Part shown: positions 41,329-45,987 of the stretch, piece after piece
How positions within the stretch are numbered: the stretch's first letter is position 1
Layout of the letters: the number at the start of each line of letters is the position of its first letter
From: Pedobacter sp. PF22-3
Lineage (GTDB): Bacteria > Bacteroidota > Bacteroidia > Sphingobacteriales > Sphingobacteriaceae
Assembly (NCBI RefSeq): GCF_026239555.1
Contig: NZ_JAPIVP010000012.1
Location: 62,001-126,000 of the forward strand
Length of the DNA: 64,000 nucleotides
Direction: 5' to 3'
The notes under the pieces: generated by a model
Seen by the model: the letters and a program-made list of their open reading frames with translations, nothing else
What the model was told of the DNA's origin: nothing
The model's database searches: none
Position numbers and translations under genes: made by a program

Positions 41329-43278
41329 ATGTTCGAAAAGCTATTCAGAAAGAAATCTATTTCCAAGATATTACAAGATGCGGCAAAAGGCTATGGCGAC
41401 CACGAAAATACATTACATAAAACACTCGGTGTACGCGATTTAACAGCTTTTGGAATTGCAGCAATTATTGGAGCCGGCATTTTTAGTACGATTGGCAAGG
41501 CAAGTGCAGATGGTGGTCCGGCGGTAATCTTTTTATTTATTTTTACAGCGGTAGCCTGTAGTTTCGCAGCCTTTGCTTACGCAGAGTTTGCCTCAATGGT
41601 ACCGGTTTCGGGTAGCGCTTACACGTATTCTTACGTAGCCTTTGGCGAATTGGTAGCCTGGATTATTGGATGGTCGCTCATTATGGAATATTCTATCGGT
41701 AATATTACGGTAGCCATATCCTGGTCTGATTATTTTACTGGATTACTCTCCACCATAAAAATACCTCCCCTCGGCATAGATGGAATCCACGTACCCGATT
41801 GGATGACAATGGATTATTTAAGTGCTTACAACGGACATAAACATGCTGAAGCACTTTTAGCCGCTGGAAAAAACCTTGCAGATTTAGATTCGGCCACAGC
41901 TTTGGCCAATAATGCATGGCTCACCGCCCCAAAAATCGGTAGTTTTCACATCGTTGCAGATATCCCTGCCCTGGGCATTATCATTTTAATTACCTGGTTA
42001 ATTTACCGAGGTATGAAAGAGAGCCGTAATGCCAGTAATGCCATGGTGGTGGTTAAGCTTGCCGTAATTCTTTTGGTATTGGCGGTAGGTATATTTTATG
42101 TAGATACAAAAAATTGGGATCCATTTGCACCTAATGGCGTTGCAGGAGTTCTAAAAGGCGTTTCAGCAGTATTTTTTGCTTATATCGGTTTCGATGCCAT
42201 TTCTACAACGGCTGAAGAATGTAAAAACCCACAACGCGATTTGCCGCGTGGAATGATGTGGGCCATTATTATCTGTACCATTCTTTATGTAGCTATTGCA
42301 TTGGTTTTAACCGGTATTGTTAAATCAGATACCTTAGCCGTTGGCGATCCCTTAGCATTTGTTTTTGATCAGATTAATTTAAAATTAATGAGCGGTATTA
42401 TTGCCGTAAGTGCGGTATTTGCAATGGCCAGTGTACTTTTGGTATTTCAGATGGGTCAACCCCGCATCTGGATGAGCATGAGCAGAGACGGGTTGTTACC
42501 GAAATCATTTTCTAAAATCCACCCGAAATATAAAACACCTTCATTTGCTACAATTGTGGTTGGCTTTGTAGTAGCTGTACCATCGCTTTTTATGAACCTT
42601 ACCATCGTAACCGATTTATGTTCTATCGGAACACTTTTCGCTTTCGTATTGGTTTGTGCAGGAGTTTTGGTACTACAGAACAGGCCTGACGTTCAACGTG
42701 GAAAATTCAAAATACCATATGTAAACAGTAAATTTATTATTCCGGTTATTTTAATTGGCGCCTTAATTTTCGCATTTACAAATTACGGAAAAGAAACCAA
42801 AGCATTCTTTTTCAATTCGCCCAAAACCATCCAAACCGTGACTTTCGTAACCTCTTTAAGTGGCGATGAACTGAAAATTGTTAAAGAAGAAATTGTTAAC
42901 AATGCTAAGCCGCAAATTGTATTGGCCGAGAAAGTAGACGCAGAATCTTACCTCAGTGCATTACCTGCTGATCGTTATGAGCAGTTTATTTCAGCCTCAA
43001 AAGTGCCTGTAGAGAAGAAATACGAAAGTGGCTGGGGTTTATTTAAGCACAAAATCCCTATGTGGATTTTCTTGATTATCTGCGTGGTCATCACCTACTA
43101 TTGCATTACCAAAAACTTATCATTAATTCCTGTTTTGGGATTGATCAGCTGTTTATACATGATGTGCGAACTTGGTATTTCAAACTGGATCGGTTTCGGC
43201 ATTTGGCTGGTAGTTGGGCTGGTGGTTTATTTTGCTTATGGTTACAGGCATAGTAAACTGGCAAATCCGGAGGTTTAG
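41329..43278 (+). CDS. APC-family amino acid permease, long form
   Basis: 649 residues. N-terminal KTLGVRDLTAFGIAAIIGAG and the later GFDAISTTAEECKNPQRDLP and GQPRIWMSMSRDGLLP are APC motifs shared with the permease at 1-936. Two extra soluble stretches are seen: about residues 144-205 between early helices, and about 487-570 (KTIQTVTFVTSLSGDELKIV onward) before the last helices, which looks like a compact alpha/beta insert. The RAYT ORF starts 3 bp after its stop. Confidence 0.88.
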   Translation: MFEKLFRKKSISKILQDAAKGYGDHENTLHKTLGVRDLTAFGIAAIIGAGIFSTIGKASADGGPAVIFLFIFTAVACSFAAFAYAEFASMVPVSGSAYTYSYVAFGELVAWIIGWSLIMEYSIGNITVAISWSDYFTGLLSTIKIPPLGIDGIHVPDWMTMDYLSAYNGHKHAEALLAAGKNLADLDSATALANNAWLTAPKIGSFHIVADIPALGIIILITWLIYRGMKESRNASNAMVVVKLAVILLVLAVGIFYVDTKNWDPFAPNGVAGVLKGVSAVFFAYIGFDAISTTAEECKNPQRDLPRGMMWAIIICTILYVAIALVLTGIVKSDTLAVGDPLAFVFDQINLKLMSGIIAVSAVFAMASVLLVFQMGQPRIWMSMSRDGLLPKSFSKIHPKYKTPSFATIVVGFVVAVPSLFMNLTIVTDLCSIGTLFAFVLVCAGVLVLQNRPDVQRGKFKIPYVNSKFIIPVILIGALIFAFTNYGKETKAFFFNSPKTIQTVTFVTSLSGDELKIVKEEIVNNAKPQIVLAEKVDAESYLSALPADRYEQFISASKVPVEKKYESGWGLFKHKIPMWIFLIICVVITYYCITKNLSLIPVLGLISCLYMMCELGISNWIGFGIWLVVGLVVYFAYGYRHSKLANPEV

Positions 43279-43281
43279 TAA

Positions 43282-43833
43282 ATGAAATACAATCCTTTAA
43301 TACATCATCGAAGATCGATCAGGTTAAAGGGTTACGACTATTCAAAAGCAGGGGCATATTTTATCACGATCTGCTGTGAAGATAGAATCCATAGATTTGG
43401 AAAAGTTTCAGGTGATGAAATGATCCTAAATCAGCCTGGAACTATCGCTTATAACGAATGGATTAATTTAGCGGAGAGATTTCCGAATTTTGAACTTGAT
43501 GTTTTTCAGATCATGCCGAATCACATGCATGGCATCATCGTCTTATCAGATCGAACTACTGTCGGGGCGACCCTTGCGGTCGCACAAGAGCAAAACGAAT
43601 TAAACAGGGCGACCGCAAGGGTCGCCCCGACAATTGCTGAAATCGTCGGAGCTTACAAATCAATTGTTTCAAATGCATGCCTGCAGTTGTTCAAGTCACA
43701 CAATAAAATAATGGGAAAGCTCTGGCAGCGTAATTATTACGAACACATCATTCGTGATGAAAGAGCATATCAAAACATTTCAAATTACATCATCAATAAT
43801 CCCGGTAAATGGAACGAGGATAAATTCCATTAA
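43282..43833 (+). CDS. REP-associated tyrosine transposase (RAYT, Y1/HUH family)
   Basis: 183 residues. RRSIRLKGYDYSKAGAYFIT at the start, the HUH metal motif H81-M-H83 (QIMPNHMHGIIVL) and the C-terminal helix ...YIINNPGKW (candidate catalytic Tyr163 or Tyr169) are typical of IS200-like RAYT proteins, single-strand DNA nucleases that mobilise REP hairpins. Residues 94-117 (VGATLAVA...RATARVAPT) are encoded by a pair of inverted REP-like hairpins lying in frame between the HUH region and the C-terminal helix. The gene has no flanking insertion-sequence ends that I can see. Confidence 0.88.
   Translation: MKYNPLIHHRRSIRLKGYDYSKAGAYFITICCEDRIHRFGKVSGDEMILNQPGTIAYNEWINLAERFPNFELDVFQIMPNHMHGIIVLSDRTTVGATLAVAQEQNELNRATARVAPTIAEIVGAYKSIVSNACLQLFKSHNKIMGKLWQRNYYEHIIRDERAYQNISNYIINNPGKWNEDKFH
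43561..43631. repeat. REP-like inverted repeat pair inside the RAYT gene
   Basis: Perfect 23-bp arms, 43561-43583 and 43609-43631, around a 25-nt loop. Each arm begins GTCGGG and contains its own hairpin GCGACC-(5 nt)-GGTCGC, the layout of a REP element (short 5' tag plus hairpin) in a head-to-head pair (BIME-like). The 72-nt block 43561-43632 adds exactly 24 codons and keeps the frame. Confidence 0.9.
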
Positions 43834-43871: not shown

Positions 43872-44024
43872 TTATTTCTTCTTGATAAATGCCAGTGCGG
43901 TAATCATCACGAGGCCTAATCCAGATGCAATCATGTAATTATTAGCATGATCCAGATGGTATATTTTGGCTGCGGGACCTGCTATAAACAGTATGATTCC
44001 CAAACTTAAAATGGCAGTCCTCAT
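43872..44024 (-). CDS. Small membrane protein, 50 aa, downstream of kup
   Basis: A short ORF of 50 codons starting 4 bp after the kup stop codon and ending just before a strong terminator, so it lies in the kup transcript. Two hydrophobic segments (about residues 4-20, AILSLGIILFIAGPAA, and 30-47, YMIASGLGLVMITALAF) with a polar turn (KIYHLDHAN) predict a two-helix membrane hairpin, ending KKK. I recognise no family. A partner or regulator of Kup is an inference from position only. Confidence 0.65.
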   Translation of the reverse strand: MRTAILSLGIILFIAGPAAKIYHLDHANNYMIASGLGLVMITALAFIKKK

Positions 44025-44028
44025 TTAA

Positions 44029-45987
44029 TTAAACCGGCAACCTATGTAATTCGATATCATCCGGTGTAACGAAAATTAATGGAACTTTCTCTACATCAAC
44101 ATAACTGCTATCCAAACCAAAACTTCGCTCCTCAGATAAACTTAATTTTTTAAGGATAAAATAATAATCCATAATCTGTCTCTCATAGAAACTCAATTTG
44201 GTAAACTTCGATAAATGTTTTTCCAAAAGTACAAACCTGAAATCGCCTGCAATTTTATGCTTGTTCAACGAAGTGTATTGACTGGTAATATCAATTTCAC
44301 CATTTTTCACCAATTCTTCAACCACTTTACGGTATAATAAATTAACACGTTGTTCAATCCTGAAGCCCAACCTAAAGTCGATCCGGATTAGCTTGCCTGG
44401 AATCAGGAATTCAACTTTATAATCTAAAGTATAAGGCTCATCCATTACGTCAACATGCACCAACCAGTATACGTCAGCGCGTTTTGGCTCCTTTTGAATA
44501 ATGGAATAAATAATTTTTGATTCAATTTCAGTTTTAAAATTGGCACTGGTTAAATAAACCAACTGTGAAGAGTATTTCGGAACCGATTCATCACTGCTCA
44601 ATTCGGTTAAAATCTGGTAGTAATCTTCAATTTCGACATATTTAACAAAACGATTTTTAATCTTACGGGCTACAAACCAACTCCACATCACCGTAAATAA
44701 TAAAGAACCGATTAATACCGTTACCCAACCGCCATGTAAGAATTTGGTTAAATTACTGATTAAAAATGTACCTTCAATAATCACGTAGGTAAAGAAGAAT
44801 ATGGCTATTAAATATTTCGGGAACCGTCTGCTTCTCAAATAAAAACTCACCAGAATGGTGGTCATTAACATGGCTATGGTGATGGATAAACCATAAGCCG
44901 CATCCATTCGCTCTGCTTTTTGAAACAAGAAAACAATGCCACAGCAGCCAATCCATAACATCCAGTTGATGGAAGGAACGTATAATTGGCCTTTTGAAAC
45001 TGACGGATAAATAATTTTAATTTTAGGCCAAAGGTTCAAACGTACTGCCTCTGCAATTAAGGTAAAAGAGCCACTAATTAAAGCCTGACTGGCAATTACC
45101 GCCGCCATTGTAGCCAATATAACCATCGGAATTTGAAACTGACTGGAAACGATCTGGAAAAATGGATTCATTTTCGCTCCAGGAATATAACTGCCGCTGT
45201 TCTGCAAAATCCAAACGCCCTGCCCTAAATAATTTAAGATAAGCGTAAGTTTCACAAAAATCCAACTGATTCTAATGTTATTTCTTCCGCAGTGACCCAA
45301 GTCAGAATATAAAGCCTCCGCCCCTGTAGTACATAAAAACACCCCACCCAGAATTAAAAACGCCAGTTTATTGGTCACCAATAAATGGATGGCATAGTAA
45401 GGATTAAATGCCTTTAGAATGCTGAAATCTTTAACCACAAAAGACACACCTACAATCCCCAACACAGCAAACCAAACAAACATTACCGGGCCGAATAGCT
45501 TGCCTACCAGATTGGTACCGAACTGCTGGATAATAAATAGAATGGTTAAAATGGTGATTACAATTGGAATAACCGGCACATCGAACTTACTGGTAAGTCC
45601 TTCAATGGCTGATGTTACCGTAATACTGGGCGTAATAATACCATCAGCAAGTAATGCGCAGCCACCTACAACAGCTGGAACAACCAACCACTTGGCCTTT
45701 TTGCGCACCAGCGAGAACAAAGAGAAAATACCACCCTCACCTTTATTATCTGCCCTGAGGGTAATAATAACATACTTAACAGTAGTCTGTAAGGTTAATG
45801 TCCAAATGATGCAGGATAAAACACCCAAAACATTTGTTGGATTGATATCCTGCTTTCCACCTAAAATTGTGGTAAAAATTGCGTTTAAAGTATACAGGGG
45901 TGACGTACCAATGTCACCGAACACAATTCCTAAGCTAATTAGAACACCGCCGGCGGTTAACGCGTTGACATTTTTATGATTTGACAC
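44029..45987 (-). CDS. kup: Kup/Trk-type low-affinity potassium uptake protein
   Basis: 652 residues with 12 predicted membrane helices and a soluble C-terminal domain of about 190 residues. GIVFGDIGTSPLYTL is the family signature near the first helix, and ADNKGEGGIFSLFSLVR follows. It imports K+ with protons across the inner membrane. Promoter with both elements at 46009-46039. Confidence 0.95.
   Translation of the reverse strand: MSNHKNVNALTAGGVLISLGIVFGDIGTSPLYTLNAIFTTILGGKQDINPTNVLGVLSCIIWTLTLQTTVKYVIITLRADNKGEGGIFSLFSLVRKKAKWLVVPAVVGGCALLADGIITPSITVTSAIEGLTSKFDVPVIPIVITILTILFIIQQFGTNLVGKLFGPVMFVWFAVLGIVGVSFVVKDFSILKAFNPYYAIHLLVTNKLAFLILGGVFLCTTGAEALYSDLGHCGRNNIRISWIFVKLTLILNYLGQGVWILQNSGSYIPGAKMNPFFQIVSSQFQIPMVILATMAAVIASQALISGSFTLIAEAVRLNLWPKIKIIYPSVSKGQLYVPSINWMLWIGCCGIVFLFQKAERMDAAYGLSITIAMLMTTILVSFYLRSRRFPKYLIAIFFFTYVIIEGTFLISNLTKFLHGGWVTVLIGSLLFTVMWSWFVARKIKNRFVKYVEIEDYYQILTELSSDESVPKYSSQLVYLTSANFKTEIESKIIYSIIQKEPKRADVYWLVHVDVMDEPYTLDYKVEFLIPGKLIRIDFRLGFRIEQRVNLLYRKVVEELVKNGEIDITSQYTSLNKHKIAGDFRFVLLEKHLSKFTKLSFYERQIMDYYFILKKLSLSEERSFGLDSSYVDVEKVPLIFVTPDDIELHRLPV

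Follow-up and report, generated by a model that had tools for sequence, protein, structure and literature searches.

Results

A RAYT gene with a palindrome in its reading frame

The window analysed here, a stretch of 64,000 nucleotides from Pedobacter sp. PF22-3, contains a RAYT gene, the reading frame of which carries a head-to-head pair of REP-type hairpins. The features concerned are as follows.

43282–43833, plus strand: RAYT (TnpA_REP-like HUH/Y1 transposase) gene, an open reading frame of 183 amino acids
43522–43530, plus strand: HUH motif His81-Met82-His83, with H81 and H83 in invariant columns of the family alignment
43561–43632, plus strand: in-frame REP-pair block, codons 94–117, VGATLAVAQEQNELNRATARVAPT, between the strand at residues 81–88 and the helix at residues 118–139
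43560–43583, plus strand: left arm, with foot GTCG at 43561–43564, local stem 43567–43572/43578–43583 and loop CTTGC at 43573–43577
43609–43632, minus strand: right arm, with GTCG on the minus strand (foot 43628–43631), local stem 43607–43614/43620–43627 and loop 43615–43619
43723–43755, plus strand: W148 Q149 ... E154 H155 ... R158, placed by profile alignment to 4er8
43786–43788, plus strand: putative catalytic tyrosine Y169 in YIINNP, an invariant column; YIxNNP is the subclass 2.4 motif in Table 1 of PMC6006769

The protein scores 29.2 bits against PF01797 (Y1_Tnp; cutoff 23) and thus counts as having a Y1_Tnp HUH domain. Its score with NCBIfam NF047646 (REP_Tyr_transpos) is 60.8 bits, under the curated cut-off of 80, and may be lowered by the inserted block. 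A structure model was built from 53 aligned family members, with the window protein first and L064 omitted from the 53 locus proteins listed; it has a mean pLDDT of 79.7, and its top PDB match is chain A of 4er8 (E 3e-07, TM 0.51/0.56, rmsd 9.3), a TnpA_REP in complex with a REP hairpin, followed by IS200/IS605 transposases. A profile search of the RAYT family against the PDB likewise gave 4er8 as the sole chain at E 0.01. Residues W148, Q149, E154, H155 and R158 align with W94, Q95, E100, H101 and R104 of E. coli TnpA_REP, all five being present, and in the E. coli enzyme these form the GTAG-contacting region according to PMC6006769. The assignment of the window RAYT to the REP-recognising type is supported.

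The permease gene upstream (41329–43278) ends with a stop codon 3 bases ahead of the RAYT start codon (junction at 43276–43284), so that both genes may share a transcript and be coupled in translation. A conserved small ORF of 50 amino acids is found on the minus strand at 43872–44024, between the RAYT and kup genes, and also at most of the orthologous loci.

The original prediction, made from the DNA alone, described perfect inverted arms of 23 bp in frame between the HUH motif and the C-terminal helix of a RAYT gene. The arms are indeed perfect, in frame and located after the HUH motif and before helix C, with the correction that each is 24 nt long; they are 100% complementary and separated by 25 nt. 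Each consists of GTCGGG, GCGACC, the loop CTTGC and GGTCGC (the right arm being read on the minus strand), so both the individual hairpins and the common GTCGGG tag that had been described were recovered. The local stem is 6 bp on the left, as predicted for both, and extends to 8 bp with a GGG/CCC bottom on the right. In the structure model, where strands and helices were assigned by position, the block falls at β3–αC between the HuH and Y motifs. Residues 93–113 have pLDDT values below 50, and the block probably sits in a disordered loop, modelled with low confidence.

A chance repeat was rejected as an explanation. Full 23/23 complementarity arose in only 4 of 200,000 back-translations of both arm peptides with the codon usage of the window; the 23-mer, with up to three mismatches allowed, was matched 0.00 times on average when the window was shuffled 100 times by dinucleotides; and the RNA and DNA folds have z scores of −8.1 and −8.4, with none of 200 shuffles equally stable in either case. 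An assembly artefact is ruled out by the recurrence of the block across many genomes. A search for known RNA families gave nothing near a gathering score, the best of three matches up to E 1 being mir-274 (E 0.05, 22.8 bits against a gathering score of 56).

A single orthologous locus in Pedobacter

Relatives of the RAYT were found in 42 of the 145 genus genomes searched, and scanning GTDB contigs brought up 72 loci, of which many belong to named Pedobacter species. The neighbours of the RAYT gene, an amino-acid permease gene and kup, are the same at loci L003–L025 and L029; L007 has some 0.6 kb of extra DNA ahead of the RAYT, and L019 some 1.2 kb past it. The 21 orthologues used for the synonymous-site test below all adjoin this permease and kup. 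The Pedobacter genes with the hairpin pair are orthologues at a single locus.

The orthologue alignment comprises 23 Pedobacter reading frames, including L029 without its N-terminal part and leaving aside L024 (stop codon), L026 (other locus) and L027 (contig end). All 23 contain the block or its deletion product, while the stretches before and between the arms (linker and spacer) differ in length. That the block adds exactly 24 codons cannot be shown, because no insert-free orthologous gene sets the edges of the insertion. Six RAYT-less loci with a short permease–kup gap (20 were fetched) gave no clean empty-site junction. Judged by eye, L145 resembles the decayed start of a RAYT gene.

The permease tree and the tree of RAYT sequences with the insert removed concur in setting orthologues with a GCAACC stem (L019, L020, L021, L023, L025 and L029, the last absent from the RAYT tree) apart from those with a GCGACC stem, with which L009 (stem GCTACC) groups. 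The kup tree disagrees with the permease tree. The protein of the kup gene (44029–45987 in the window) is about 88–92% identical to that of the window in L007, L009, L011, L013, L017, L018 and L019, as against 95–98% at most other orthologous loci; together with the tree conflict, this looks as if kup had been exchanged at the locus.

No further copies of the pair

In its own genome, GTCGGGGCGACC occurs twice, and these occurrences are the two arms. With up to three mismatches the hairpin was matched at 15 places, compared to 34 for a reversed control; 4 of these are the RAYT gene and the other 11 have three mismatches, leaving no copy outside the RAYT gene. Feet of the form GTMGGGGC number 59, compared to 119 for the reversed pattern, and inspection of all 59 in this genome found only two with a stem of at least 6 bp, both in the RAYT gene, and one other with a 5-bp stem. 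Across 17 other genomes the excess of feet was mixed, above the reversed control in some and below it in others.

Among the 145 genus genomes, GGGGCGACCN5GGTCGC gave 26 matches in 17 genomes, all 26 inside RAYT intervals, and the corresponding GCAACC form gave 19 matches in 10 genomes, 15 of them inside RAYT intervals of 8 genomes; the patterns were exact in these genomes, so the counts would miss decayed copies and other stems. The remaining four GCAACC-form matches are intergenic REPs with a GTAG foot in genomes G019 and G028, which have no RAYT match at E 1e-8. The stem type is thus shared with ordinary intergenic REPs of two other Pedobacter genomes, which makes a mobile origin plausible, but as a past event. 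Genome G028 also has intergenic REP pairs with unlike stems, around position 697 in L188 and around 630–730 in L187. Replication in a second genus, that of G148, was limited to matches in just 6 of 48 genomes, too few to be of use. The original prediction had taken an absence of copies elsewhere in the host genome as evidence against itself; within the searches made, none are there. Its view of a RAYT gene with a REP-type pair conserved as hairpins at the DNA level holds, but that of a pair that is mobile at present, with copies elsewhere, is not supported for this genome.

Constraint on the arms at the DNA level

Synonymous divergence (pS) was compared along the gene in 21 orthologues, with L022 and L029 left out. 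It is 0.182 in the left arm and 0.266 in the right arm, compared to 0.581 in the N-terminal part, 0.521 in the spacer and 0.747 in the C-terminal part. In the N- and C-terminal parts, all 141 segments of 8 codons exceed the left arm in pS, and all 139 segments of 9 codons exceed the right arm. At fourfold-degenerate columns, mean diversity is 0.22 in the arms (14 columns) compared to 0.46 elsewhere (28 columns), with p values of 0.0007 and, against A/V/T/G/P columns only, 0.002, which are indicative only because columns within an arm are not independent. Conservation of the hairpins at the DNA level, whose absence would have counted against the original prediction, is therefore present, the arms having diverged at synonymous sites about one third as much as the rest of the gene.

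Codon choice in the arms also differs from that in the rest of the gene. GC3 is 0.745 in the arms and 0.334 in the rest of the gene, in a window with 37.7% G/C, and the mean share among synonyms is 0.18 for arm codons compared to 0.42 for the others. The valine codon GTC makes up 3.1% of valine codons in 32 ORFs of the window, yet it stands at the left foot in 20 of 21 orthologues. Non-synonymous divergence is 0.053 and 0.071 in the arms, 0.076 and 0.084 in the rest of the gene, and 0.283 in the spacer.

Matched changes between the arms

Changes in the arms were mapped on the permease tree of 22 orthologues, L022 being left out both here and in the shuffling of arms. Each arm has 14 changes, four of which coincide with the same complementary change at the same column and on the same branch in the other arm; random placement gave a mean of 0.07 such matches and reached four in none of 20,000 trials. 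Two of the matches, at columns 9 and 21, lie on both sides of the root and so on one edge between the two groups, where together with their local partners they form a single four-column switch. The others are at column 9 in L009 and at loop column 15 in L021, and these do not aid, or even disrupt, the local hairpins while keeping the pairing between the arms. Mismatches between arms amount to 22 of 506 positions, compared to 42.4 when arms were shuffled among all 22 species (none of 10,000 shuffles as low). When shuffled only within the two groups, the observed match was reached in 386 of 10,000 cases, which means that most of the signal rests on the one old switch. With 10 of the 14 changes per arm unmatched, pairing between the arms is favoured but not absolute.

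Central deletions and damaged copies

Three copies have been reduced to one hairpin that has a foot on either side, referred to below as double-foot: L022, which has an open frame, and the damaged copies L151 and L152. The hairpin is perfect in L152 and has one mismatch in L151. The loop is CTTGC in L022 and L152 and GCAAG in L151, which would fit deletions between direct copies of the right or left half-stem. According to PMC6006769, double-foot REPs could come from central deletion of an inverted dimer; L022, L151 and L152 resemble these REPs in their two feet around one hairpin, and differ in that orthologues with and without the deletion share one locus. In G086, the contig of L027 ends right past its hairpin, which could be a fourth central deletion or a contig-end artefact; L076 shares its final 1,500 bases with L027. 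Two further damaged copies have fared differently: the truncated gene L153 keeps both arms, with 22 of 23 positions matching and the left foot changed to ATCG, and most of the right arm is gone from L024, which has a stop codon.

REP units in the wider RAYT family

Outside the Pedobacter locus, 39 loci, mostly from Bacteroidota, were compared, with kinship among loci ignored in the counts. At least one strict REP unit was found in the loop at 23 of the 39, a fraction that is not a rate for all RAYTs because relatives without a GAYKS-like anchor were left out. These comprise Flavobacterium L096, L097, L099 and L100 (without recognisable REP peptides), L101, L032 and others; in addition, 16 of 104 loci were dropped from the family set for lack of an intact HUH-to-Y frame by the pattern used. 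The inserts, 6,807 nt in all, contain 41 strict units, as against 5 in the remaining 19,539 nt of the genes and 17 in 194,260 nt of flanking DNA, and 100 mononucleotide shuffles of the inserts gave 0.13 units on average and 2 at most. Stem types differ (CAACC, CAGGG, CGACC, CGGGG), even inside one gene, and the start GTNGGGGC is common to most but not all.

The idea that internal and flanking REPs are alternatives was rejected, there being no association between them (flanking REPs present/absent at 4/19 loci with internal units and at 4/12 loci lacking them; Fisher p 0.69). Pedobacter also has another RAYT group (L170–L185) with hairpins of other stems in the same loop, for example GTAGGGGCAAATCATCATTTGCCC in L174 and L185, and thus a further instance of REPs read in frame. 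In L058, L072, L087, L089 and L090 the inserts have grown into tandem repeats of REP-derived codons, such as the repeated AVAPNN of L072, so that REP sequence seems to act as a seed from which repeats grow in these transposases.

Discussion

Relation to known REP systems

TnpA_REPs of subclass 2.4, which corresponds to group 4 of Bertels (PMC6006769, Table 1) and is abundant in Bacteroidetes, have REPs inserted in frame predominantly at β3–αC (Quentin et al. 2018, PMC6006769), so the in-frame arrangement itself, in print since 2018, is not new. The window gene resembles this subclass in its in-frame REP between HuH and Y and in its WQ and YIxNNP motifs. By this comparison of motifs, it differs in its HUH motif, NHMH instead of NH[IFV]H, as well as in its foot, GTCG instead of GT[AG]G, and in the lack of any other copy found in the genome. 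Synonymous constraint, shown here for the window gene, finds no mention for subclass 2.4 in the consulted parts of PMC6006769, and our searches of open-licence PMC papers pointed to no analysis of such constraint on internal REPs. The present analysis adds the single-locus orthology, the lack of other copies in our searches, the synonymous constraint with the matched changes, and the central deletions.

A canonical REP, which its TnpA_REP binds and cuts in single-stranded form, has a GT[AG]G foot followed directly by the hairpin, with three G-C pairs at the bottom of the stem, and is extragenic and repeated in the genome, whereas both arms of the window pair have the foot GTCG and the pair is neither extragenic nor repeated. 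As to the stem, the right arm has 8 bp with a GGG/CCC bottom, the left arm 6 bp. Like REPINs and BIMEs, it consists of two inverted REPs with a short spacer, and the related GCAACC stem is intergenic and GTAG-footed in G019 and G028; unlike them, it has no mobile population in its genome. REPs are also known inside other genes (Di Nocera et al. 2013, PMC3733652). As with in-frame intragenic REPs and the Rickettsia palindromic elements, which bear a CGTC tag (PMC3733652), the palindrome is read through as protein; those elements lie in varied host genes according to the same source, the window pair in the gene of its family's own enzyme.

Explanations for the conserved palindrome

The simplest account of its origin is that a mobile REP pair landed in the loop and stayed. 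We infer that this pair, a head-to-head, REPIN-like dimer, would have been present in the ancestor of these Pedobacter species, in the tolerant β3–αC loop of a RAYT gene resembling subclass 2.4, and would since have been inherited vertically at one locus without multiplying, being kept because its DNA sequence matters. The arms would be recognised as single-stranded hairpins by the protein of the very gene that carries them (self-recognition in cis), possible uses being autoregulation of the RAYT gene or holding the protein on its own template, and the identity of the arms is probably aided by template switching from one to the other. Recognition by the own protein would explain the constraint on both foot and stem and would fit the residues present. 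In its favour also count the single locus, the lack of other copies in our searches, the matched changes and the concentration of REP units in the inserts of other RAYTs. Several observations speak against it: the foot is GTCG, whereas the known guide is GT[AG]G (PMC8266576); the matched changes in L009 and L021 do not serve the local hairpins; palindromes persist in damaged copies; L022 has an open frame with a single double-foot hairpin left; and most of the match between arms rests on one old switch, 10 of 14 changes per arm being unmatched. As regards the foot, PMC8266576 reports that any substitution in GTAG abolishes binding and cleavage by the E. coli enzyme, and that two other TnpA_REPs accept changes to some extent. 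Weighing belief and doubt about equally, we read the palindrome as an old REP pair that no longer multiplies and persists as a site at the DNA level, most probably one for the protein of its own gene.

Pairing between the arms could instead matter in the mRNA, where a 24-bp duplex with a 25-nt loop would slow ribosomes or be cut, RNase III being the suggested agent, and would thereby limit expression of the transposase. The RNA does fold as one long arm–arm duplex (−56.8 kcal/mol, z −8.1), and a role in mRNA accounts better than own-protein recognition for the matched changes in L009 and L021, which keep this pairing and not the local hairpins. It fails, however, where the two stems of a gene differ: relatives outside the locus (L048, L049, L055, L062, L087) have unlike stems and hence no long duplex, and what they mostly have in common is the foot and the GTNGGGGC start. 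We consider this role unlikely, though worth bearing in mind. Complementary changes on the same branch, including one at a loop position of L021 that is unpaired in any local hairpin, would also be left by template switching (quasipalindrome correction) or conversion between the arms, which could keep them alike in the absence of any function. Template switching is reported to homogenise the arms of inverted repeats (PMC8604942, PMC8794818), and palindromes persist in the damaged copies L151, L152 and L153, a persistence that fits either mutational upkeep or recent damage. Homogenisation alone, however, should not slow divergence between species, yet the rest of the gene has about three times the pS of the arms, whose GC-ending codons persist. 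GC-biased conversion could still yield both of these features; all the same, a palindrome upheld by mutation alone strikes us as distinctly unlikely.

A REP pair trapped in frame in a tolerant loop, with no present role, would agree with the very low confidence at which the loop is modelled and with its being the predominant place of insertion in subclass 2.4 (PMC6006769), but the synonymous-site constraint across 21 Pedobacter orthologues makes a past insertion very improbable as the whole explanation. The least probable reading is that the peptides VGATLAVA and RATARVAPT are needed by the protein and the palindrome merely follows. The non-synonymous divergence of the arms resembles that of the rest of the gene and is far under that of the spacer, as such a need would predict; against this stand the constraint on synonymous sites in the arms, the appearance of the palindrome in just 4 of 200,000 back-translations of the two peptides, the very low model confidence of the block, as would be seen for a disordered loop, and the other REP peptides carried by other lineages in the same loop.

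A RAYT and its target may have merged, although here our doubts somewhat outweigh our belief: the only cognate REP pair would lie inside the frame of its own enzyme, with the same DNA read as protein and serving as its putative binding site, in a self-contained single-copy unit that selection would maintain without a REP population, possibly with the guide shifted to GTCG. To our knowledge, the role of RAYTs for their hosts and the reason why REPs persist are open in the field. A lone, constrained REP pair in its own RAYT gene, in a genome where no REP population was found, separates the two explanations usually given, the spread of REPs and a host or self-regulatory role, and the changed foot GTCG offers a natural test case for the guide-sequence model of how cleavage sites are chosen.
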